IMG/VR virus record: IMGVR_UViG_3300035681_000133
Coordinates: 1-22,749 of that record
Length of the DNA stretch: 22,749 nucleotides
Source of the DNA: a virus
Direction: 5' to 3' (one strand)
The notes beneath the pieces were generated by a model. The model made no database searches. It was not told the origin of the DNA and was given only the letters and a program-made list of their open reading frames with translations. The position numbers and the translations under genes are program-made. This document shows positions 652-20,282 of the stretch, one piece after another. How positions within the stretch are numbered: the first letter of the stretch is position 1; each line of letters begins with the position of its first letter.

Positions 652-3600
652 TTAGTTTTTTAAAGTATCGATTTCTTGTTTTAACTCTTGAATTGCTTTT
701 ATTAAAATTGGAGTTAGTTTTCCATAGTCTACACCTTGAGGAATAATTACTCCATTTTTGTCTATTTGGTCTTTAATGCCTCCAACCATATCTGGAATTA
801 ATATTTGTAATTCATGGGCTAAAACTCCGTATGACCTAAAATTTAAATCTTTCCATTTAAAATCGTAGGTTTTTATTTTACTTACAATTTCAATTCCGCT
901 ATAATCTTTTAAATCCTCTTTAAATCTGTAGTCTGAAGTAGTGTTATAAAGAACGCCAGTATTAGCGATATTTGTTTGAATACTACCTTTATTTACTGAA
1001 TTTGACCTAAAAAGCATTAAAAAAGAATTTGCTGCCGATGTTGTTTCATTTATTGCTAATCCATTATTATTTGCATCTGAATACTGGACTGTTAACCTTG
1101 CAACTGCTGAATTTGTATCAATTAAAACATCTCCACTAGAAGTTATAATCATTCTTTGGGTCATTGCGCTGCTATTAAGTCTAGTATAAAAATTTATGTC
1201 TCCTGAAACATTACCGTCTGTTGTATTTGATTTCATTCCACCAATAGCAGACCATTCGGTATATGAACCTCCCGAATTAAATGTACCTCCAAATGTAACT
1301 GTGCCTCCATGATTAGAGGCATTGTAAGCTTGAGAATCATAAATACCTAATCCCGAAAATGCAGTTGATTTATCCCATTGAACCGAAAGTCTACTTGGAG
1401 GACTATCCGTACCAATCCCAACATTTCCGCCTGTTATATAACTATTACCTTGGGTGTTTAATTGTATACCAATATTATTGGAATTATTATATAATCCTAA
1501 ATATCCAGCAGCTGCTCCAGCAGTTGAAGAGCCAGTTCCTAGCCATACAACTTGATTTGCACCTTTATATAAAAACAAAGCTCCATTACCATTATCTGCG
1601 GCCCTTACATCTAAAATTCGTGTAGGTGTAGAAGTCCCAATCCCTACGTTGCCGCCTGATGTGATGCGCAATTTTTCAGTTGGAGTTGTTGAGCCTGAAT
1701 CTGAAGTTCGAAAGGCAATATAACCTCCGTTGACTCCAGTAGTTGTTTGCTCAATATGAATAGCACCTAAAGCACCTCGGCTACTCATTCCAGTAAATCG
1801 ACCTCCAGCAGTTGCAACATCTAAAGATTGGGTTGAAGTTACCTGACCATTGGAATCAATTGAAAAGTAACCACCTGAAGAAATAAACCGCCCAGTTCCG
1901 TTAACGTCTAGCTTATAGCCAGCGTCTGTTGGTGAGTTTGCAATAGTTACGTTTCCGTTGCTAAAAATTGCAAGTCTTTCTGTATTATCAGTTGCAAGAA
2001 TAAGTCTGCTATCTCCAAATAAATTATTAGGGTCTGCATTTAAAATTAAATTTCCAGTTCCTGCATAACTAAAAATATTTCCAGTAGTAACATTGTTTGC
2101 AAAAAAGCCAATCCCTGGATAAAGAGTAGCCGAAATATTAAAAGTCCTTACATCTGTTCCCGAATAGTAATTAGCACCTCCAAAAGCTCCGTTTGTTCCA
2201 TTTTCAGTAAATAAGCTATTTCCAATCGTTGTTGAGCCTGTAAACTTTGGTAATGTTCCGCTTGTACCTGTTCCCGTTACTGGGTTAGTTAAAGCGTTTT
2301 GTTTGCCGTTAAAAGTTGTCCAATCGGTACTAGATAACAATCCATTTTGCGAGCCGCTGGCCGTTGCAATTGCCAAGGTAATTGTTCCGCTTGTTGTTAT
2401 CGGAGTTGAGCCAATAGTGACGCCGCTAGTCGCCGAGGATAAGCCGACCGAGGTAACCGTTCCAAGGTTAGAAGTTTTGTTGTTAAAGGTTGTCCAATCC
2501 GCCGAGCTTAAAGCGCCTCGATTTGTCGCGCTTGCCGTTGGTAAATTAAACGTATGGGTATCGCTTGCGCTAGAAATTGCAAAGTCTGTTCCGCTAGTCC
2601 CAACCGTTAAATATTGCACTTGGCTAGTAAGTCCGTTTAATGCAGTCAAACCAGTTGTAAACGTGGTAATAACTTGGCATAAATGGTTGTTTTCTGTATG
2701 CAAAGTGATCGTACGGCCTGAATGTGTAACGTAGTATCTTAGTGCCAACCTATCTGTTAAAGCCAAGACTGTCTCGGGAACTGCTAACGTGCTAAAATAT
2801 GGGTTTAAGTTAGTTCCAAAAGCTATTAACTCGGGCGCCGTGCTACTAGACGCAATTAAGGTAAATGTTGTGCCGTTGTACTTGTAAAGCTCAACATGAA
2901 AGGACGGCGTTCCTCCACTACTTGATGCGCTAAAATAAGTCTCTAAGTTCCAGTTTCCAGCTGGAATAAGTAATTTATTAGGGTCTCCTGCATCTGTAAT
3001 AAATGAGGCAATATATCCGTCAGCGCTTATGCTTATGTCAGTTCCAGCGCCAAATATTGGCGTTTTGTTAAGTTCCTTATAAGCAACTCCTCCGATTGTG
3101 CCTTGGCTTACTGAGCCGTTCAAATAGTAACTAACCGACGAACCGCCGCCAGTAGTTGCTGGAAAGTCAGCCAATGAGCCATCGCCTCGGATGTATTGCC
3201 CAACCGTGCCAGCGCCAGTAACTGCCAAAGTTCCAGCCGTTGTTATTGGACTTCCACCAACGCTAAATGCTGACGGCATAGTTAATGCAACCGAGGTTAC
3301 TGTTCCCGTTCCATATGTACTAGAATCAACTGATCCGTCCGCCTTTAAAAATTGTGCAGACGTTCCGCCAGCCTTTACAAATGATCCAGCCAAAATGGAT
3401 TGCGCGCCCAGGTTAACCGTAGTAACTGCGCCAGTATAAGGTACATAACCGCCGCTTGAGTTTTCCCATTTAGAGGTTGACGAATTATAAACCAATACCT
3501 GGCCATTTGCTGGCGCCACAATTGTAACGTCGCCCAACTCTGACAAATTAATATCGGTCCTATCTACGTTCTCCCATTTGCTAGTTGTGGAATTGTATTG

Positions 3601-3786
3601 CAAAATCTGACCATTGGTAAGCGCTGAAATGTCAACGTCAGTTAATCCAGCCAGGCTTTGCGGTGATCCTTGCAAAAGCGTTGCCTTGGTTGTCTGTTTG
3701 TTTAAACCGTCTTGCCAAATTAAAACAATGTCGTTGTCGCCAACACTTGCGGCAATTGGAAAGTCTATAAATCGTCTATTAGCCAT
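652..3786 (-). CDS. Tail fibre with C-terminal S74 intramolecular chaperone
   Basis: A 1044-aa structural protein, probably the trimeric receptor-binding fibre. Residues 1-45 look like an attachment region. Residues 48-74 and 84-110 are two copies of a repeat ending in YNSTTSKWEN or YNSSTSKWEN. A long Gly/Ser/Thr-rich beta region follows, with repeated LSSxDWTTFNxK units and two GNVGIGTxxP units. The C-terminal ~97 residues match the peptidase S74 chaperone, which folds the trimer and then cuts itself off: the SDYRFK motif places the probable Ser-Lys dyad at S951 and K956, and the end (DYGKLTPILIKAIQELKQ) is the usual terminal helix. It starts three bases after the hub gene stop. Sampled windows suggest lower GC in the C-terminal half. 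Confidence 0.9.
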   Translation of the reverse strand: MANRRFIDFPIAASVGDNDIVLIWQDGLNKQTTKATLLQGSPQSLAGLTDVDISALTNGQILQYNSTTSKWENVDRTDINLSELGDVTIVAPANGQVLVYNSSTSKWENSSGGYVPYTGAVTTVNLGAQSILAGSFVKAGGTSAQFLKADGSVDSSTYGTGTVTSVALTMPSAFSVGGSPITTAGTLAVTGAGTVGQYIRGDGSLADFPATTGGGSSVSYYLNGSVSQGTIGGVAYKELNKTPIFGAGTDISISADGYIASFITDAGDPNKLLIPAGNWNLETYFSASSSGGTPSFHVELYKYNGTTFTLIASSSTAPELIAFGTNLNPYFSTLAVPETVLALTDRLALRYYVTHSGRTITLHTENNHLCQVITTFTTGLTALNGLTSQVQYLTVGTSGTDFAISSASDTHTFNLPTASATNRGALSSADWTTFNNKTSNLGTVTSVGLSSATSGVTIGSTPITTSGTITLAIATASGSQNGLLSSTDWTTFNGKQNALTNPVTGTGTSGTLPKFTGSTTIGNSLFTENGTNGAFGGANYYSGTDVRTFNISATLYPGIGFFANNVTTGNIFSYAGTGNLILNADPNNLFGDSRLILATDNTERLAIFSNGNVTIANSPTDAGYKLDVNGTGRFISSGGYFSIDSNGQVTSTQSLDVATAGGRFTGMSSRGALGAIHIEQTTTGVNGGYIAFRTSDSGSTTPTEKLRITSGGNVGIGTSTPTRILDVRAADNGNGALFLYKGANQVVWLGTGSSTAGAAAGYLGLYNNSNNIGIQLNTQGNSYITGGNVGIGTDSPPSRLSVQWDKSTAFSGLGIYDSQAYNASNHGGTVTFGGTFNSGGSYTEWSAIGGMKSNTTDGNVSGDINFYTRLNSSAMTQRMIITSSGDVLIDTNSAVARLTVQYSDANNNGLAINETTSAANSFLMLFRSNSVNKGSIQTNIANTGVLYNTTSDYRFKEDLKDYSGIEIVSKIKTYDFKWKDLNFRSYGVLAHELQILIPDMVGGIKDQIDKNGVIIPQGVDYGKLTPILIKAIQELKQEIDTLKN
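934..936 (-). other. Predicted S74 autocleavage point (Ser951 codon)
   Basis: This is the TCA codon for Ser951 of the fibre, in a TTSDYRFKE context. In characterised S74 chaperones cleavage occurs just before the serine of a Ser-x4-Lys pair, and the same spacing is present here (S951, K956). Cleavage would leave a mature fibre of about 950 residues and release a C-terminal piece of about 94 residues. The assignment is from motif recognition. Confidence 0.6.
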
Positions 3787-3788
3787 GT

Positions 3789-6700
3789 TTAGTTAATTGG
3801 GTAAACGTAAGCGGTTGGAACTTGTCCAAAGGTAATTCTTGCCACTCGACTTGCCAAGTCATACTCCCAGCCAATGACTTGCAAACGTACGGTTGAAAAG
3901 CCAGTATATACTAATTGTGTACCTATGTAACCATTTCCAAACGTGTCGCCCTTGCGTCTAAATGACCCCTCCAAGCGATAGCTTAAAGCGTTGTATATAG
4001 TCAACACATTACGAGCGTAACAATCGCGCAAACGTGGTGAATAGCCGCCTAGTAAAGCTTGGTTTTCAAAGCTTATGTCCGTTTGCGAATAGGTAATAGA
4101 ACCGTTGGCGTTTACTTGCAAAAGGAATGTCGAGGTTTGGTAATCGTTGGAATTAGAGTCTTTTAAAAAGACTTGAATTTGAACGTTTGCCTCGCCTGTA
4201 TAATCGTAATCGTCAAAGGTTACCGTTAAATTTCTTTGTTGGCTGGAAATAGTTGTAACAATTGGCAAAACTGCCGAGCCTGTCGGAATTGTTCCCGACA
4301 AACTATTTACCAAAACAAAAGTACTTGAAATAGTAAAGCCGCTTGCCGCCACATATTGTCGTTGATACTGACCATTAACAACGCCGCCAGTAAAGTCCAA
4401 AGTATTAGACCCTAAAGTATCGGTCAATCGGTTTACTTGAGTAACCGCACCGCTTGGCACCTGAATAATTCCAGCAGTTCCAGCCAAAGACTTTTCAACA
4501 AATACAATGGCTGGCAAATCGCCTATTTTTAGCCAGTTTTTAGAGGCGGTTATTGCTAGATCACTAAACCTTAAAGTATCGTCTCGCAAGCTAGTATAAG
4601 CTCGGGCCGTCTCATAAATCTTTGTTACCTCGCTTGGATTCCGTCGCCCTTCAAACGTTGGAATTATCTTTGCCGCAGTTACTACCGCGCTGCCAGTCTC
4701 GCCAAAAAATTTAAGCTCAACGGATAAAAATCCAGCCGTTGGCAAAACAAAAGAAGACAGTTTAAACTTTCTTGTGTCGTCGTCTTTAGTTGAATAGAAA
4801 ACAAAAGTATTATAAGCCTCGTCCCACGCCAAAAGATTTAAAGAGCCAACAATACTTGTTCCCAAGTACCTAGTTGTTCCGCTGCTATCGACGTGCTTTA
4901 AAGCAATAGCCAAACCGCTTGCTAAAGTTGAATAATTAATATCAACCTCTAAATCCAAACTTAATCCAGCAAAGTCCAAGAAAATTGGCTTTGAGGTAAT
5001 TGGCTCGTCTGTTTCTTCGCCGTTTGCCATAAATCGTATGTCCCAAGAAACGCCTTGCTCGTCGTCGTAACCGCTTTGCGCTGGAATGTTATTTGGGAAA
5101 ATTTGAATTACTGGCGTGTCGGGATCGGGTGTTATGGTCCAATCGTAAGGCTTATAAGGTCCCTCAAGAAACCAACTTGATTCGTTAAAGCTTTCGCCGT
5201 TTGTTATTATTGATTGACCCAAGCCGCCTTGTTTAACAGTAAGTTTTTTAATTGGCCTTTGGTATTGCAAAAGCTGGTCCCCTCCAACAGGAATCCAAGT
5301 TGTGTTGGCCGTATTTTGATCGCCAATTATTTCGCTTTGAAAACCTTCAAAATAATTGAACATAATTGCATTGGCTCCAGTATCTGCAACCCCTACAAAA
5401 GTATTCTCGCCAAATGTTATATCTCTATAAGTATTTAAACTAGGTGAGGCCGTGGCGGTCCAAGTAATAGCGTCAGTTGAATAATAAATTCGATTAGCTC
5501 CCGATTCAGTCAAGCCAACAAAATAGCCGTTTCCGTAAGTTATACCAACCGCGTTAAAATTTATATTGGCTAAGTTCCAAGTAATTCCGTCACTTGAATA
5601 ACGATAACCAGTTGTAAATTTTCCGTTTCCAAAAAAGACAGTTTCAGCGTTCCAAGCTAAATTCCTTTGCGTCCAAGTGATGCCGTCGGTTGAAGTCATA
5701 ACGTTTCCGCCAGTTACTCCAGCGCCTCCAGTACTAACCGCAACAAAAACACCGTTTCCGTATGCCACGCTAGTAAAATCGGCATTCATTGGCGTTGTAC
5801 GACTTGTCCAAGTTATTCCGTCAGGCGAGGTCATTACGCGGTTGCCTGTTCCAGTTCTAGCAACCGCAACAAATAAACCATTGCCATAAACAACGCCTTG
5901 CCACCACAAATTAGCCGCTGGAGTTCGACTAGTCCAACTTATTCCGTCAGTTGAGGTAAATACATAAGCCGTAGGCACGCCAGGGGAGCCAACGCTAGCA
6001 AATCCAACGCCTACAAATAAACCATTACCAAAAGTAATGGAATCAATTTGCCAACCTCCACCTGGTATGGACTCTTCCCAATTTATACCGTCATAAGAAT
6101 ATGCCCTAAATGCTGAAAAGCTTGCAACAAAAATGCCGTTTCCGTAAGCAACTGTTTTGTAACTATAATCAACGGTTAGATTTGTCCATTGAGTAATCGC
6201 CGTGCTTGTGTTGTTTGCAAAACTTTCAATTACTGACCCATCAACGTAGCTATGAACGTAAACCATTGTCCCCTCAATGTTTCTAGCAATTGGTCGCTGA
6301 ATTAACCAACGCCCATTTTTTTGTAGCAAAATCCAGCCAAAACTGCGACAAATTTCCAGCAAGAAATCGTAAGCGTTTATTTGTAATTCGTCAAAAGTAA
6401 AGTCTTGGACTAGCAATTGTTCGCCTTCTACCTGGTCAAATATTGACCTCGTGTTATCCATTACAAGGCCCTCATATAGATCATTGCAAACCTCAATATC
6501 TAGCTCTAATTCCAAGCGGTTTAAAGTCTCAAAAATAAGGCTGCCAAGCTCGGTGTCTGCATTTGGACCAACCAAATCCACTTCTTTAAGTTGCGCCAAT
6601 CCGTCGGTTGCCGTTACGACAACTGGGTAAGGAGGGTCTTGGAATGGCTCCCCAGTAATGTCGTTAAGTAAGTAGCCTTTAAAGACAACATTTCCCTCGA

Positions 6701-6974
6701 ATTTATGCACAACTAAAAACTCGCGGTCGGAATAGCTAAAGAAATTGCGAAAGTCGGTTGTATCCGTTGAGTAAAAAGAAATTGTAAACGTCGTGGACAT
6801 TATTGGCGTTGTAATGTCCTCGTTGTCTTCGCGCTCGTATTTGTGCGTTGCTGGTTGCTCGGTTGCAATTAATTCCGTTGAGGCGCCAACAAAACCGTCC
6901 TGGTAAATTTCAACTAGGTTTGAATAGTTGTCGACGTCCTTAAATGGAATTGTGTATTTTAAGCCGTATGCCAT
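3789..6974 (-). CDS. Tail hub / tip protein with inserted beta-propeller
   Basis: A 1061-aa protein directly after the tape measure, the position of the siphovirus hub (distal tail/tail-associated) protein. Residues 1-235 resemble the N-terminal part of hub proteins I associate with Bacteroidota phages: beta-rich, with a segment near 195-230 (AYDFLLEICRSFGWILLQ). Residues about 260-545 are a repeat domain with seven GNGxFV-type strands and seven W-containing strands, read as a seven-bladed propeller. The rest (about 550-1061) is beta-rich and may include carbohydrate-binding-like and fibronectin-like modules. Three bases separate it from the tape measure gene and two from the fibre. It likely forms the tip that opens at host contact. 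I am sure of tail-tip identity, less so of the exact homologue. Confidence 0.8.
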   Translation of the reverse strand: MAYGLKYTIPFKDVDNYSNLVEIYQDGFVGASTELIATEQPATHKYEREDNEDITTPIMSTTFTISFYSTDTTDFRNFFSYSDREFLVVHKFEGNVVFKGYLLNDITGEPFQDPPYPVVVTATDGLAQLKEVDLVGPNADTELGSLIFETLNRLELELDIEVCNDLYEGLVMDNTRSIFDQVEGEQLLVQDFTFDELQINAYDFLLEICRSFGWILLQKNGRWLIQRPIARNIEGTMVYVHSYVDGSVIESFANNTSTAITQWTNLTVDYSYKTVAYGNGIFVASFSAFRAYSYDGINWEESIPGGGWQIDSITFGNGLFVGVGFASVGSPGVPTAYVFTSTDGISWTSRTPAANLWWQGVVYGNGLFVAVARTGTGNRVMTSPDGITWTSRTTPMNADFTSVAYGNGVFVAVSTGGAGVTGGNVMTSTDGITWTQRNLAWNAETVFFGNGKFTTGYRYSSDGITWNLANINFNAVGITYGNGYFVGLTESGANRIYYSTDAITWTATASPSLNTYRDITFGENTFVGVADTGANAIMFNYFEGFQSEIIGDQNTANTTWIPVGGDQLLQYQRPIKKLTVKQGGLGQSIITNGESFNESSWFLEGPYKPYDWTITPDPDTPVIQIFPNNIPAQSGYDDEQGVSWDIRFMANGEETDEPITSKPIFLDFAGLSLDLEVDINYSTLASGLAIALKHVDSSGTTRYLGTSIVGSLNLLAWDEAYNTFVFYSTKDDDTRKFKLSSFVLPTAGFLSVELKFFGETGSAVVTAAKIIPTFEGRRNPSEVTKIYETARAYTSLRDDTLRFSDLAITASKNWLKIGDLPAIVFVEKSLAGTAGIIQVPSGAVTQVNRLTDTLGSNTLDFTGGVVNGQYQRQYVAASGFTISSTFVLVNSLSGTIPTGSAVLPIVTTISSQQRNLTVTFDDYDYTGEANVQIQVFLKDSNSNDYQTSTFLLQVNANGSITYSQTDISFENQALLGGYSPRLRDCYARNVLTIYNALSYRLEGSFRRKGDTFGNGYIGTQLVYTGFSTVRLQVIGWEYDLASRVARITFGQVPTAYVYPIN
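5340..6197 (-). repeat. Seven-bladed beta-propeller repeat inside the hub protein
   Basis: The encoded residues ~260-545 contain seven units. GNG-type strands occur near residues 278, 316, 364, 407, 449, 481 and 522 (the last degenerate, GEN). W strands occur at W263, W299, W347, W389, W434, W466 and W505, most in an SxDGITW context. The repeat opens with a W strand (ITQWTNL) and closes after the seventh GNG strand, which is the circular arrangement expected for closure of a propeller by strand exchange between first and last blades. Spacing of about 32-48 residues per blade fits. The fold is inferred, not proven. Confidence 0.7.
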
Positions 6975-6977
6975 TGT

Positions 6978-8768
6978 TTAAAATTTTCTTGCCCTTGTTT
7001 TATTTGCTCTGTTCAACGTGCCAACCAAAGAGTCGCCGCTAATTGTAAAGGTAACATTCCCGCCCATCATGTTTTGCAATTTGCTTAAAGGTGCGATAAC
7101 TTCAGGATTTGTGCGCGCTCCTGTATATTCACCGACTAGCGCGGAGGTTGGACCGCTTACAATTCCACCATTTGCAAAAGGAATTAGACCGCCAAGCTGA
7201 CCGCCGCCGCCTAATCCTTTAAATATGTTTTTAAATCCTCCTGATCCAGCGCCAAATCCTGACAAGCCAACACCTCCAAGCAAAAGGTTTAAAGCAAATG
7301 CAGCCGCAGCGGTTGCCGCCAATTGTATTGCCATTTTTTTAAGTCCATCCAACAAAGATGCAAAACCAAATTGTCCCGTTTCAAACATTTCTGTAAATGA
7401 TTGAGCCAACAATGGCCCAAAAATGCCTGACATTTCAAGCCCTAAATCTCTTTGCTCTTTAAATTGTTGGTTTAACAACATTGCATTTTGAATGTGCAAC
7501 TTATCCGCCTCGTCCATTTCAGGCGTGTAGGTTATACCTTCAGCTAAATTTTCAGTATTAACTTTTGAATTTGCCTGGGGAGCCTCAAATCCAGCCGTAA
7601 TTTTTTGGTTGGTTTCACTTATTGAATAGCCAAAATCCTCAAATCCTATCTCATAACTTCTTGATAATTTTTGTAATGCCTCCTCCTCTTTTTTTATTTG
7701 TTCAAGTTTTTTGTCGTGGTCCTTTTTGAGTTGTTTAGCAAGCTCGTCGCTTATTTTTTTGGATGCCTCTTTAGTTTGAGTTTCTTTTTTTAGCGCTTGC
7801 TCTGCCTCAACTGCTGCTTTTTTTGTTGCGTTAATACCAATTGCAACCCCTTCCAATGTTGCCGCGTAGGCTGGACTAATAAAAGAAAGTAATTGACGGC
7901 CAAAAGCTTCCAAACCAGTATCGCCAGCAGCTTGGGCAACAGTATTAACAGAATTTAAAGAAGTTACTAAATCGCCAACAATTGTATTTGATAATTGTAA
8001 AACGCTAGATATTAAACCGCTTGATGACGATCCAATTGCCAATTGTAATTGGGAAAAATTGTCTTGCAAATTGGAAATTTGACCGCCAACAGTTTCCGAA
8101 ATTGCAGCCATTGAGCCGCTGACACCCTCAGCATTTCCAAGGCTAATTAAATAGTCTTTAATCGCTTCGTCCGTCTTTTCAACCTCGGTTGTTACGCCTT
8201 TAAAAGTAAACGCAACCTTATCGCCTTCAGATTTTGCACGAATACCAAACTCTTTTAAACGCTCAAATTCGCCAGTCATTGCGTCCAAAGCCGCTTCGGT
8301 CAATTGGTCAAAAGATTTACCAGTTGACGACGCTAGATCACCCAAAGCATTCATTTGGGCCAAGGTCGGTGTAAAACCTCGATTGGCTAATTTTACAAAT
8401 GAGTCCGTTAATTCGTTAACCTGGAAAGGTGTTTTGGATGCAAACTCAACTATTTGAGTCATTGCAACCTGAGCCGCTGATTTACTGCCAAGCGTCGTTG
8501 TTAAAACCGCTTCCATTTTTTGGAATTCCGCAGTCGTTTCAACCACCGCTTTGCCAAAACTTAAAAGCATATCGGCGGCAAATAGACCGCCCAAGGTTTT
8601 GCCTAAATTTCCAAAGGCGCTAGATAAAGCATTCGTTGATTTTGTGCTTTCGCTATTTCCTTTCCCAACTTTTTGGTTTACTTCGTCAACCTCCGATTTA
8701 ATATCGGTCATTGCTTTGTTAAACTCTTTTAGTTGGGCGACAATGTCAACGTTTAATTTTGCGCTCAT
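6978..8768 (-). CDS. Tail tape measure protein
   Basis: A 596-aa protein that sets tail length and is released at DNA ejection. Residues ~77-245 match the tape-measure domain common in siphophages (FASKTPFQVNELTDSFVKL, LTEAALDAMTGEFERLKEFG). Residues ~315-372 are a Lys/Glu-rich coiled coil, ~479-510 an Ala/Leu/Gly hydrophobic segment, and ~531-570 carry the FANGGIVSGPTSALVGE signature of tape measure C termini. Its ATG overlaps the stop of the upstream chaperone frame in ATGA, suggesting translational coupling. At roughly 1.5 angstroms of tail per residue, a general rule for these proteins, it implies a tail near 90 nm, short for a siphovirus. Confidence 0.92.
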   Translation of the reverse strand: MSAKLNVDIVAQLKEFNKAMTDIKSEVDEVNQKVGKGNSESTKSTNALSSAFGNLGKTLGGLFAADMLLSFGKAVVETTAEFQKMEAVLTTTLGSKSAAQVAMTQIVEFASKTPFQVNELTDSFVKLANRGFTPTLAQMNALGDLASSTGKSFDQLTEAALDAMTGEFERLKEFGIRAKSEGDKVAFTFKGVTTEVEKTDEAIKDYLISLGNAEGVSGSMAAISETVGGQISNLQDNFSQLQLAIGSSSSGLISSVLQLSNTIVGDLVTSLNSVNTVAQAAGDTGLEAFGRQLLSFISPAYAATLEGVAIGINATKKAAVEAEQALKKETQTKEASKKISDELAKQLKKDHDKKLEQIKKEEEALQKLSRSYEIGFEDFGYSISETNQKITAGFEAPQANSKVNTENLAEGITYTPEMDEADKLHIQNAMLLNQQFKEQRDLGLEMSGIFGPLLAQSFTEMFETGQFGFASLLDGLKKMAIQLAATAAAAFALNLLLGGVGLSGFGAGSGGFKNIFKGLGGGGQLGGLIPFANGGIVSGPTSALVGEYTGARTNPEVIAPLSKLQNMMGGNVTFTISGDSLVGTLNRANKTRARKF

Positions 8769-9511: not shown

Positions 9512-9934
9512 TTAAGTAGATGCTGGTACTACGGTTGCTTTTAGTAATGGACCTTTTCCAGTAAATTCTACAGAATAAGTTACCGCGGCCTCCATTTCAG
9601 CTGAAACGCTGATTGATGCAACGCTAGCGTTTCCGTAAAATACAAGGTCTCCAGTTACGTTGGTGGTAAACTTTAACGCCACAACAGTACGACCGCTCAA
9701 AAGCGTATAAATGTCGCCTACGTTGTTTGTGTCGTCAAATGCAACCAATCCGTCAGTTGAAACGGACCAATCACGCAATCCAGCGATATGGTCGGCCCAT
9801 CCGCCATCGTCTTTGCAAGTTGCATCCGCAAGGTCAACGTTTACGGATAATTCTGAAGAGGTTGCGCATCCAATCATAACGTTGTCTAGGTAAACGTTTA
9901 AAAGGGTGCCATTAAATTTGCCAGCAGTTGCCAT
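9512..9934 (-). CDS. Major tail tube protein (copy 2)
   Basis: A 140-aa protein of the TP901-1/major tail protein type, which stacks as rings to form the tail tube. Evidence is its beta-rich content, its position just before the chaperones and tape measure, the internal motif WADHIAGLRDWSVSTDGL, and a C-terminal strand ending TGKGPL that is typical of these tube proteins. It is paralogous to the gene just upstream. This copy has the shorter, canonical length and is closest to the chaperone genes, so it is the better candidate for the main tube subunit. The 70-bp gap upstream is A/T-rich and carries no clear promoter or terminator. Confidence 0.82.
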   Translation of the reverse strand: MATAGKFNGTLLNVYLDNVMIGCATSSELSVNVDLADATCKDDGGWADHIAGLRDWSVSTDGLVAFDDTNNVGDIYTLLSGRTVVALKFTTNVTGDLVFYGNASVASISVSAEMEAAVTYSVEFTGKGPLLKATVVPAST

Positions 9935-10004: not shown

Positions 10005-10469
10005 TTAAGTGTAGACCAAAAAGTTGCCGTCTTGATCTATTATTATTTCAAATAATTCGTCAATAATAAACCGCTCCGCTGGTAATATTGTAGGGTAAAG
10101 TCCGCCAACACCTTTAAAGTTTGCCGAAATTGTTGCAACATTTTCCATAGGTGCCGATTGGCTTAATGATTCAATCATTGCCAAACCGATAAAGGTTAAA
10201 TTGTCCTCTTGACCAGCTGACAAATAAATGCGCTCGCGGTTAACATAAGCGTTAAATAAATCGCCAAAAGAAAAGCCGTCTTGAATGTAAAGGGATTCGC
10301 TAGATAAGGACCAGGAGGCCAAGCGCGAAATATGGTCCGCAAAAAACCCCGACTCATTACTTGTTTTATCAAGTTGTCCCATTTCAGCGGACAACTCGTA
10401 ACTGGTTGACTTGGCAACTTGATTCAGCCCAACCGTTACAAATAAAGCGGAGCCATTTACCTTAGCCAT
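10005..10469 (-). CDS. Second tail tube-like protein (paralogue)
   Basis: A 154-aa protein clearly related to the following tube protein: FADHISRLASWSLSSESL here corresponds to WADHIAGLRDWSVSTDGL there, and ANFKGVGGL corresponds to EFTGKGPL near the end. It carries about 25 extra C-terminal residues (FIIDELFEIIIDQDGNFLVY). The ATG overlaps the stop of the tail terminator gene by eight bases (ATGGCTAA), so translation is probably coupled. It may be a minor or alternating tube subunit, or form the first ring below the terminator. Which copy dominates in the virion cannot be read from the sequence. Confidence 0.78.
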   Translation of the reverse strand: MAKVNGSALFVTVGLNQVAKSTSYELSAEMGQLDKTSNESGFFADHISRLASWSLSSESLYIQDGFSFGDLFNAYVNRERIYLSAGQEDNLTFIGLAMIESLSQSAPMENVATISANFKGVGGLYPTILPAERFIIDELFEIIIDQDGNFLVYT

Positions 10470-11670: not shown

Positions 11671-12260
11671 GCGCCAAACCAGTTATAAGTCTTATAAGGC
11701 ATCAACAAGGCTTTAACTCCCAAAGGAAATTCCGCCACAATTGTTCCAACAATTACGTCCTCGCGACGTTCGTAAAGTGTATTTACCAACATTTTAATGG
11801 CAAGCTTAATGTCCTCGGGAACCGTTGTAAATCCAGCAACATAAACCATTTTAAACTTATAGGATTGTGCGCCTCCTATAATGTTAATCTTTGGAAACAA
11901 TCCCACGTTTAACTGGTAATTTAAAGCCGTCTCAGCATTGTTTTGATCTAGCGTTACAACCTTAGTAACATCCCCAGCAGCAACCAAGGGACCATAAGGG
12001 ATTTGCCATTGGTATGGAAATCCAAACGATTCAATTGTAACTGTCTTGCGAATAATTGCCTTACCCATGTACGACTCGCAATGTAGGCGCGCAACTTTTA
12101 TTAGGCTAGTAATTAAGGTGTCTTCTGTACTTCCGTCGATTCTAGCGTATTCTTTTGCCTCTGCCAATGTAATTGGCTCGGTAACTGGCGCCACGTCTGC
12201 AAACTGGATAGAATATCCTGTAAAGGACGAATTGTTGGGACTATATAATAAATCACTCAT
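11667..12260 (-). CDS. Head-tail connector protein (HK97 gp6-like)
   Basis: A connector ring protein that docks under the portal. Near the N terminus is the family signature PITLAEAKEYARIDG followed by EDTLITSLIKVARLHCESYMG, and the C-terminal part has the helix IKLAIKMLVNTLYERRED. I use the ATG at 12260 (197 aa), which overlaps the stop of the glycosyltransferase gene by eight bases (ATGAGTGA). An upstream ATG at 12284 would add eight residues within the glycosyltransferase gene. It begins the neck gene block that continues through adaptor, gp10-like and terminator. Confidence 0.83.
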   Translation of the reverse strand: MSDLLYSPNNSSFTGYSIQFADVAPVTEPITLAEAKEYARIDGSTEDTLITSLIKVARLHCESYMGKAIIRKTVTIESFGFPYQWQIPYGPLVAAGDVTKVVTLDQNNAETALNYQLNVGLFPKINIIGGAQSYKFKMVYVAGFTTVPEDIKLAIKMLVNTLYERREDVIVGTIVAEFPLGVKALLMPYKTYNWFGA

Positions 12261-13239
12261 TGTATGGTTTCTTTGCTTTGTCAACGATAAAATTAAAGAA
12301 TCTTTCTAGTTCTTGGTCCTGGTATTTAAGGCGCTCCTCTGCAAGGTTGCGCATTATGTTTTGGTGAAAGTCGTATAAAATCTCGTCGCTCATCAACTCC
12401 TCAATCTTTGCCGCCATTCCGTCTAAGTCGTCACGATCAAAGTAAAGACCAGCGGCGCCAAGACATTCCTTTAGGCCGTCCGTAGGCGTGCATATTACTG
12501 GGAGCCGATTAATTGCAGCCTCCAAACCAACGCGCCCATAAGACTCATAAAACGAGGGCACAAGCATAATGTTTGTTTTGCCGTAGATTAAATGGACGTC
12601 AGGCGTTTGCGCGACATACTTTAAATTTTTTAAGGTGTCGTCCATAATTTGCTCGCCATAGCTGCCAAGCACGCCAAGAAATTTTCGCTTTGGTAATCGC
12701 TTGGCCAGTTCAATTAATATTTGTCCGCCTTTGTTTTCGTTGCAGTTTATAAGGGTAATGTATTGCCCATGTTTGCGGTTGTACTTTACATCTTCAGGGA
12801 AAATTGGCGGCTTGCAAACAATCGACGCGTTTGGATAAGGCCCGTTTTGTACGTTCTTTTCGTTTGCCTTATTGTTGTAAACAACGTGAATGTTTTGCGC
12901 TTTAAACCTTACGTTTCTATAATCTGAATCGTTATGGCTTAAAAAAATCAATTGCTTTTTAAATTGTCTTGACCAATTAATTGCAACGCCTGTATTGTCT
13001 AAGTGCGTAAATATTACGCTTGCATTTTGTAAGGCTAAAAAAAAGTCGTTTGAATAGTAACCAGTTATAAACTTTATAAATGCAAATTTTTCGCCGTCGG
13101 GATAAATTTGGCCCTCGGGTAAAATCACTTCAATATTGCATCCCTTCTCGTGAAAATATTTGGCGTAATGCTGAACGGTCCACTCTGCACCTGAGTTATG
13201 AGTGCCAGCCCAAGCGTGTACAAAAAAAACGATATTCAT
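12253..13239 (-). CDS. GT4-type glycosyltransferase in the head gene cluster
   Basis: A 328-aa GT-B fold retaining glycosyltransferase (group 1/GT4-like). The N-terminal Rossmann half begins MNIVFFVHAW and has the usual Gly-rich start (SGAEWTVQHYAKYFHEKG). The C-terminal half has NENKGG (167-172), the donor-site E232-x7-E240 pair in SFYESYGRVGLEAA, and LPVICTPTDGLKE. It transfers sugar from a nucleotide donor; the acceptor is unknown. The gene lies between the capsid protein and the connector, directly after a strong terminator, and overlaps the connector gene. Enzymes placed this way may glycosylate virion proteins or alter host surface glycans. Length is slightly below the ~370-400 aa common for the family. 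Confidence 0.85.
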   Translation of the reverse strand: MNIVFFVHAWAGTHNSGAEWTVQHYAKYFHEKGCNIEVILPEGQIYPDGEKFAFIKFITGYYSNDFFLALQNASVIFTHLDNTGVAINWSRQFKKQLIFLSHNDSDYRNVRFKAQNIHVVYNNKANEKNVQNGPYPNASIVCKPPIFPEDVKYNRKHGQYITLINCNENKGGQILIELAKRLPKRKFLGVLGSYGEQIMDDTLKNLKYVAQTPDVHLIYGKTNIMLVPSFYESYGRVGLEAAINRLPVICTPTDGLKECLGAAGLYFDRDDLDGMAAKIEELMSDEILYDFHQNIMRNLAEERLKYQDQELERFFNFIVDKAKKPYNE

Positions 13240-15291: not shown

Positions 15292-15324
15292 TAAAAAAAA
15301 ATGCAAACCAATAAATTATTGGTT
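15292..15324 (-). terminator. Weak terminator-like hairpin at the end of the GT25 gene
   Basis: On the minus strand AACCAATAA and TTATTGGTT form a perfect 9-bp, A/T-rich stem around a single central base (so the inner pairs open to form the loop). After four bases (TGCA) comes a run of nine T. The stem includes the GT25 stop codon. The low-GC stem and the gap before the T run make it a weak or leaky terminator at best. Confidence 0.4.
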
Positions 15325-15894
15325 AATAAAATGCAAGGCTTTCGCCTCGCTTTCCTCAAAGATACTTGTATAATTTTTATGAACGCCTTCAATGTCGCTT
15401 TCGCTTGGTCGCTGATAAGACAAAAAAGGCACGCAAATATAAGAATTACCTTTTGGATGGACTATTGTCCTAAAGTGTTCGTCAATTGGTATGTCTAAAT
15501 TTAATTGGGCCATTTCCTTTGCAAAGCGATACGAGTACAAAATTCCATGCGTGGTCCACGATCCATAAGTGCGGACCAATCCCTTGGTTACGCGGTCAAG
15601 TCTTGAATCTTTTATATTGGCTCCCAACATCAACATATCCCAGTCAGCTGGCAAATCCTTTATTGCATTTTCTAAACTGGTCGCCCAGCCTCGGTAAGTT
15701 GCATCGTCTTCAAAAATTAAAACGTCGCCCTCGCATTCTTGAAAAATCTTTTTAAAGGTTTGCCACAATCCAAGCCAACCCCATTCGTGTTTAATTGCGC
15801 TTACCCTTTTTAAATTAAAGTGCGGCGATAACTCTTGCATTGAGGCGCGCCATTTGTCTTTGCGGTTATCTAAGTTAATAACGTAGGCAATCAT
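15316..15894 (-). CDS. GT25-family glycosyltransferase
   Basis: A 192-aa protein of glycosyltransferase family 25 (LPS-biosynthesis type, GT-A fold). Motifs: VINLDNRKDKW at residues 5-15, the metal/donor site VLIFEDDA at 58-65, GSWTTHGILYS at 111-121, and IPIDEHF at 135-141 followed by FLSYQRPSESDIEG. In bacteria these enzymes add hexoses to surface polysaccharide; here the acceptor is unknown and could be a virion protein or host glycan. The gene overlaps the MuF gene by four bases and precedes the protease, an unusual place for an enzyme. The length is near the lower end for the family but the core motifs are intact. Confidence 0.85.
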   Translation of the reverse strand: MIAYVINLDNRKDKWRASMQELSPHFNLKRVSAIKHEWGWLGLWQTFKKIFQECEGDVLIFEDDATYRGWATSLENAIKDLPADWDMLMLGANIKDSRLDRVTKGLVRTYGSWTTHGILYSYRFAKEMAQLNLDIPIDEHFRTIVHPKGNSYICVPFLSYQRPSESDIEGVHKNYTSIFEESEAKALHFINQ

Positions 15895-19703: not shown

Positions 19704-19730
19704 AAAAAAGTCTAACCGAAATTAGACCTT
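19704..19730 (-). terminator. Intrinsic terminator after the methyltransferase gene
   Basis: On the minus strand AAGGTCTAA and TTAGACTTT pair over 9 bp (one G-T wobble) around the loop TTTCGG, and the T run continues for three more bases. The stem includes the methyltransferase stop codon. It separates the methyltransferase from terS, although read-through is possible. Confidence 0.65.
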
Positions 19731-20282
19731 ATCAAATACCATTATCGTGTAGCCAAACCAAGACGCATTTGTTGCGGCCTTTCTAATTGTTTCGCTATCG
19801 TTAAAATTAAATTTAAAGCCGCGGTCCTCAACTTGACCAATAATATAGTTGTTATTTCTGCAATTAATGTGTCCGCTTCCGCCTTGGCCCTCAATTGCCC
19901 AGCTAATAACTAAATGTTTTTTGGCGTGCTTGCAAATGTTGTCAATAAATTGTTGCTCAAATTCGGATGGAATATGTTCGCCGACTTCCAGCGACAAAAC
20001 AACGTCAAACATTTTGCGCAAATAAAAAGGCTTAGACAAGTCTAGTACCTTGCCAATCCCATTGCTTAGCGTTTCGGTATTAGGGTTGCCGTCGTATGCC
20101 TCCACCTTATAGCCGTCAGCTTTAAAAGCTTTTGCATAGTCACCCATACCACATCCAAAGTCGACAACCGTCTTGGCTTGTTTTTCTCCTAGATAATTGG
20201 ACAAAGCGGCGGCAATGCTGCGGTCGTGAATGTGACCAGTTGCGTCCGTTGTCTCCCAAAATCCTAAATCATTTATTTTCAT
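19722..20282 (-). CDS. Class I SAM-dependent methyltransferase
   Basis: A 186-aa Rossmann-fold methyltransferase. Motif I is VVDFGCGMGDYA (39-50), the acidic residue after strand 2 is D64 in EAYDGNPNTE, and motif IV-like FDVVLSLEVGEHIP spans 92-105. The segment ISWAIEGQGGSGHINCRNNN (127-146) resembles small-molecule or sugar methyltransferases; I see no DNA target-recognition domain and no (D/N)PPY motif, so a DNA methylase is unlikely. The substrate is unknown; a glycan is plausible given the two glycosyltransferases downstream. The gene lies between the early block and terS with terminators on both sides, like a moron cassette. Its ATG lies about 16 bases after the upstream terminator. Confidence 0.8.
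   Translation of the reverse strand: MKINDLGFWETTDATGHIHDRSIAAALSNYLGEKQAKTVVDFGCGMGDYAKAFKADGYKVEAYDGNPNTETLSNGIGKVLDLSKPFYLRKMFDVVLSLEVGEHIPSEFEQQFIDNICKHAKKHLVISWAIEGQGGSGHINCRNNNYIIGQVEDRGFKFNFNDSETIRKAATNASWFGYTIMVFDKV

Follow-up and report, generated by a model that had tools for sequence, protein, structure and literature searches.

Tail genes and the putative hub protein

The window, a virus record of 22,749 bases, represents an incomplete phage genome whose close relatives were all metagenomic contigs. Its main genes were located on the minus strand in an order typical of long-tailed phages, namely terminase, portal, Mu-F-like, protease, capsid, connectors, tail tube proteins, tape measure, hub and fibre. 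No sheath gene was recognised in the window, hence the phage is likely a siphovirus. The hub gene can be placed by the tape measure gene immediately upstream of it (Table 1), and no separate Dit gene was found between the two.

Table 1 Coordinates of the hub gene, its parts and its neighbours in the window
Feature	Position	Strand	Basis
Tail-tip/hub protein that holds the propeller (1061 aa)	3789..6974	-	Open frame; directly downstream of the tape measure gene
N-terminal part of the hub (residues 1-250), with the final strands before the module	6225..6974	-	71-98% identity, relatives with and without propeller
Seven-bladed beta-propeller, residues 255-545, seven GNG and seven W strands	5340..6212	-	Motifs, AlphaFold2 model, fold match, absence in relatives, breakpoints
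C-terminal hub part, residues 549-1061	3792..5330	-	76-99% identity, relatives with and without propeller
Tape measure protein; gene immediately upstream of the hub gene	6978..8768	-	Pfam TMP_3 (E = 5.6e-11); several PHROG tape-measure families
Tail fibre ending in a Peptidase_S74 chaperone; gene immediately downstream of the hub gene	652..3786	-	Pfam PF13884 (E = 1.7e-6)

We infer that the 1061-aa protein is the tail hub since its gene directly follows the tape measure and its N-terminus has a homologue, gp59 of Cellulophaga phage phi18:1, that was identified in virions (MS/MS) and is likewise encoded directly after the tape measure. The N-terminus was ~25% identical to gp59 (24–29% to distant hubs in general) and matched phrog_23570 (‘virion structural protein’, E = 2.8e-8), an entry whose length (905) equals that of gp59. 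The C-terminal part found no match among annotated phage records, NCBIfam annotated nothing in the hub, and a profile of the N-terminal part had no match among solved structures. Sequence searches of the PDB with the whole protein returned antibody-type matches only, which were judged to be chance. The full-length model was poor outside the propeller (pLDDT 52.6), and a fold search with that model returned the propeller again. As the rest of the hub folded poorly, the propeller can only be presumed to sit on the surface of the tip.

Several other genes in the window were noted. A group-1/GT4-type glycosyltransferase gene (12253–13239, minus strand; Pfam E = 2e-12) occupied an unusual place between the capsid and connector genes; glycans of the virion or of the host surface could be its substrates. 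A 192-aa protein resembling GT25-type glycosyltransferases (MIAYVINLDNRKDKW...EDDA; 15316–15894, minus strand) was encoded between the Mu-F-like and protease genes and had no Pfam match at E 0.01. A SAM-dependent methyltransferase (19722–20282, minus strand; Methyltransf_23, E = 6e-10) was encoded immediately upstream of the terminase genes. Finally, two adjacent and seemingly paralogous genes (9512–9934 and 10005–10469, minus strand) encoded tail-tube-like proteins, the first above the Phage_tail_2 cut-off and the second a weak match.

The propeller repeat and its predicted fold

The initial annotation, made from the sequence alone, had proposed that 5340–6197 (residues 260–545) encode a seven-bladed propeller built from seven GNGxFV and seven W strands at 32–48-residue intervals, opening with a W strand and closing with a GNG strand. 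This reading was borne out both for the repeat and for the fold. Seven [FY]G[NE][GN]xF[VT] motifs started at residues 277, 315, 363, 405, 448, 480 and 521 (spacings of 38, 48, 42, 43, 32 and 41 residues), and 20,000 shuffles of the domain never yielded more than one GNG-type motif. Seven W strands alternated with these: a W at residue 263 preceded the first GNG strand, one of the remaining six (SxDGIxW or DAITW) followed every GNG strand but the last, and a GNG-type strand ended the domain. The edges of the module, set by structure and recombination boundaries, lay at residues ~250–548.

The AlphaFold2 model of the propeller (33 relatives in the alignment; pLDDT 89.5, pTM 0.86) was a closed seven-bladed ring spanning residues ~255–545. 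DSSP assigned seven A, seven B and seven C strands, with D strands in blades 1–6 (short in blade 5) and the seventh, D7, donated by the N-terminus. This gives a 3+1 velcro closure, in which the N-terminal strand at W24 (model residues 25–27) joins the C-terminal A7-B7-C7, so that the model displays both the closed ring and the terminal-strand velcro of a seven-bladed beta-propeller. Fold comparison, which had been suggested as a check on the annotation, aligned 262–269 residues around the ring. The best solved match was virginiamycin B lyase (2z2o; Z = 28.2, rmsd 2.7, 269 aa) at 12–13% sequence identity; seven-bladed 7big also aligned over its full length, and designed seven-bladed propellers were among the matches. 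We read the likeness to virginiamycin B lyase as a match between a model and a fold and claim no membership of that family.

Family searches gave little more. DUF6242 (PF19755) was the best Pfam match, below its cut-off (19 bits vs 29), and a match to a glycosyl hydrolase family was likewise sub-threshold. A propeller profile searched against solved structures gave a chance-level match only (E = 0.4). The GNG/DGxxW-type repeat was widespread in bacteria, occurring in at least 431 genome stretches (38–50% identity among the matches listed), and bacterial propellers of this kind (DUF6242-like, with Ycf48 and virginiamycin B lyase folds) share the repeat and the fold class but sit in bacterial genomes. 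The top viral fold matches included related propellers in proteins named as auto-processing chaperones (fibre-like), BNR, tail-fibre and baseplate proteins. No second propeller gene was found elsewhere in the loci of the relatives.

Sialidases and many other carbohydrate-active enzymes are propellers, and the closest solved fold belongs to a lyase. Together with the sub-threshold DUF6242 and glycosyl hydrolase matches, this could point to a sialidase- or lyase-like enzyme that cleaves host surface glycans. The SxDGIxW repeat resembles, at least by its letters, the Asp-box turn (SxDxGxxW) of sialidase/BNR propellers. Yet in 33 homologous sequences the propeller had no invariant Asp, Glu, His, Lys, Arg, Tyr or Cys, and no Pfam enzyme, BNR or sialidase family reached its cut-off there. 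The invariant positions were W, G, S, T, N and hydrophobics, as is typical of the repeat. Propeller types could differ in their active site, but we regard catalysis as quite improbable.

Presence, absence and exchange of the propeller

That the propeller is an insertion in an otherwise continuous hub, and a module gained, had also been proposed, with the proviso that homologous hubs should not all contain it. Hub homologues with and without the insertion were both recovered. Among IMG/VR relatives with sequence covering the site, the propeller was present in at least 46 close hubs and replaced by a short loop in at least 21. Because patterns derived from the propeller were also used in the first search, this ratio is tilted towards presence. 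The flanks of these empty hubs were 71–79% (N-terminal) and 76–84% (C-terminal) identical to the window. Closer pairs were also found: the propeller-bearing hub L035 was 89–90% (N-terminal) and 95–97% (C-terminal) identical to the empty hubs L050, L051, L052, L056 and L063. On the hub tree, inferred with the insert removed, presence and absence required three changes, at least two of which were forced by starred branches. Since this sizeable minority of close relatives lacks the propeller, it is dispensable.

Propeller repeats were absent from 22 distinct distant viral hubs (L213–L217, at 28–29% N-terminal identity, and kin of L214; ~670–746 aa), from Cellulophaga phi18:1 and from Flavobacterium 11b. 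Absence is probably ancestral, as every distant outgroup hub examined lacked the domain, which agrees with the proposed gain. Repeated gain, loss and exchange by recombination followed; cassette swapping, and gain that was repeated or reversed, go beyond what the initial annotation had claimed.

The propellers themselves were far more divergent than the hubs that hold them, and hubs 95–99% identical outside the module could contain propellers only 41–58% identical. This included the window and L038 (98% outside vs 42% inside), L012 and L018 (97% vs 46%), and L026 and L039 (98% vs 51%). On DNA, identity dropped from ~93% outside to ~52% inside, and the fitted breakpoints lay at residues 255 and 547. 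Nine further pairs, which are not all independent, had the left edge at 242–265 and the right edge at 541–548, apart from one at 496 (window and L009). The hub and propeller trees conflicted at starred branches: L038 was placed beside the window in the hub tree (starred clade, 98) and within a divergent clade in the propeller tree (starred, 100). The propeller is swapped as a unit among these phages, apparently via recombination in the conserved flanking hub sequence.

Blade 3, the most conserved blade, departed from this pattern, with 66–87% DNA identity over 5805–5894 (hub residues ~361–390) between propellers otherwise ~50% identical. This may reflect a packing contact or a shared recombination tract.

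Within one propeller type, dN/dS was ~0.11 in the propeller and ~0.07 in the core, signifying purifying selection on the module. Hypervariability by point mutation was rejected on this basis, and the value of 0.11 also argues against the propeller being the target of a DGR, as far as sequence comparison can tell. Given this low within-type ratio, new variants arise by exchange rather than by accelerated point change.

The adjacent fibre gene appears to be a second variable host-recognition gene, its N-terminus being conserved and its C-terminus variable among relatives with or without the propeller. Co-inheritance of fibre and propeller was tested and not found: for 26 pairs whose hubs share 93% identity or more, the similarity of the propellers was uncorrelated with that of the fibre C-terminus (rho = −0.10, P = 0.63), a purely descriptive value because pairs share members. 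L012 and L042, for example, had near-identical propellers and unrelated fibre ends, the L012 fibre being cut by the contig end. The propeller therefore assorts independently of the neighbouring fibre gene.

A candidate host-surface-binding module at the tail tip

Variation between propellers was concentrated in particular loops. With strands assigned from the model, mean entropy was 1.80 bits in the DA and BC loops vs 0.87 in the AB and CD loops (P = 3e-9), a contrast computed for the GNG/DGxxW propeller only and partly generic, as the repeat motif itself makes up the AB and CD turns. Most indels also fell in the DA and BC loops. In standard propeller topology these loops form one face. In the model the chain enters at the start of D7 and exits where C7 ends, which puts both chain ends at the CD corner of blade 7, on the opposite face. 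Since the DA and BC loops lie on one face and both chain ends on the other, the variable face would be directed away from the hub.

By analogy with known tail-tip inserts, the exchangeable propeller most likely acts as an accessory host-surface-binding module. A ~290-aa seven-bladed propeller of GNG/DGxxW repeats, inserted in a loop of the tail hub protein, would function in adsorption at the tail tip. Presumably present in several copies around the tail axis, it would contact a surface protein or a glycan, either ahead of the separate tail fibre or along with it, and would be traded as a unit between phages encountering different hosts. Binding is favoured over a spacer function because propellers are swapped between near-identical hubs, the variable loops probably face outward and the viral fold matches include fibre and chaperone proteins.

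The main rival to binding is a structural role, with the propeller as a spacer or scaffold that stabilises the tip or docks other tip proteins and does not bind the host. In the SU10 nozzle, seven-bladed propellers form the lining of the channel and keep fibres and needle in place (PMC9509320), the repeat number was maintained across the aligned propeller-bearing relatives, dN/dS was low, and the conserved blade 3 could be a packing surface. However, the 21 or more close relatives that lack the propeller still keep the hub and the fibre N-terminus, swapping down to ~42% identity in an unchanged hub is unexpected if a fit to hub or fibre were required, and propeller type did not correlate with fibre type. 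Easy loss and exchange thus speak against a structural role, which we consider unlikely.

The same swapping and surface-loop variation would also be seen if the propeller were a decoy or shield, exchanged in evasion of host surface defences or inhibitors and not for receptor binding. Its fold relatives, however, occur in adhesion-type proteins, and we know of no precedent for decoy or shielding surfaces in phage tails; this explanation is very improbable. Returning to surface binding, the hub could serve as a recombination platform, in which one fixed site receives divergent propellers or none, exchanged independently of the fibre. Each phage would then possess two independently assorting determinants of host recognition, an arrangement to which we lean slightly.

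The nearest functional parallel is the evolved Dit, known from lactococcal skunaviruses and other siphophages; its optional inserts have been demonstrated to confer adsorption to exopolysaccharide-bearing lactococci (PMC10688798). As there, the hub is a conserved tail-tip protein with an optional domain, relatives with and without it and several distinct groups of insert, and the propeller may be considered analogous. The evolved Dit inserts differ in being BppA-like carbohydrate-binding modules in phages of Gram-positive bacteria, for which binding was shown, whereas here a seven-bladed propeller is held by a protein in hub position in phages related to those of Bacteroidota, and binding is predicted.

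Propellers themselves have been described in phage host-recognition proteins, including those of phi11, PRD1 (P2) and phiKZ (gp131C) (PMC4901313). The phi11 receptor-binding protein Gp45 has an N-terminal-strand velcro propeller within a tail-tip host-recognition protein, as here; there are three propellers per trimer, and the propeller has a GlcNAc-sized cavity. In contrast, that propeller is five-bladed, and Gp45 is a separate receptor-binding protein with stem and tower rather than a hub insert (PMC4901313); cassette loss or gain is not known to have been described for it. The propeller of phiKZ gp131C, as cited in the same text, is seven-bladed and baseplate-associated like the one in the window and was proposed to be receptor-binding or cell-degrading, but it is the C-terminal domain of a baseplate protein of a jumbo myophage, its function is unconfirmed, and it is not a hub insertion (PMC4901313). 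The T7/SU10 nozzle also has a seven-bladed propeller in a tail-tip protein whose chain enters and leaves it at a single blade, but there it forms the structural core of a hexameric podovirus nozzle and is not known as an optional, swapped insert (PMC9509320).

Phage adhesion devices with propellers, and tail-tip proteins with inserted modules, are each already known separately. No hub-inserted propeller in siphophages was found in the literature searched, which is not proof of absence; what is new, within that literature, is a seven-bladed propeller in a hub-position protein that is present, absent or swapped between near-identical hubs, independently of the fibre. This suggests that decoration by exchange, similar to that of the evolved Dit, also occurs in phages related to Bacteroidota phages and with another fold. 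Natural near-isogenic hubs with different propellers or none make directly testable the idea that a phage can alter its attachment through exchange of a hub module with the fibre unchanged. Host prediction from fibres alone would overlook the second determinant.

One clade of empty hubs, around L044 (L046, L048, L049 and L065), had a short fibre followed by an extra gene of ~950–1076+ aa with tail-spike-like matches, which perhaps stands in for the role of the propeller.
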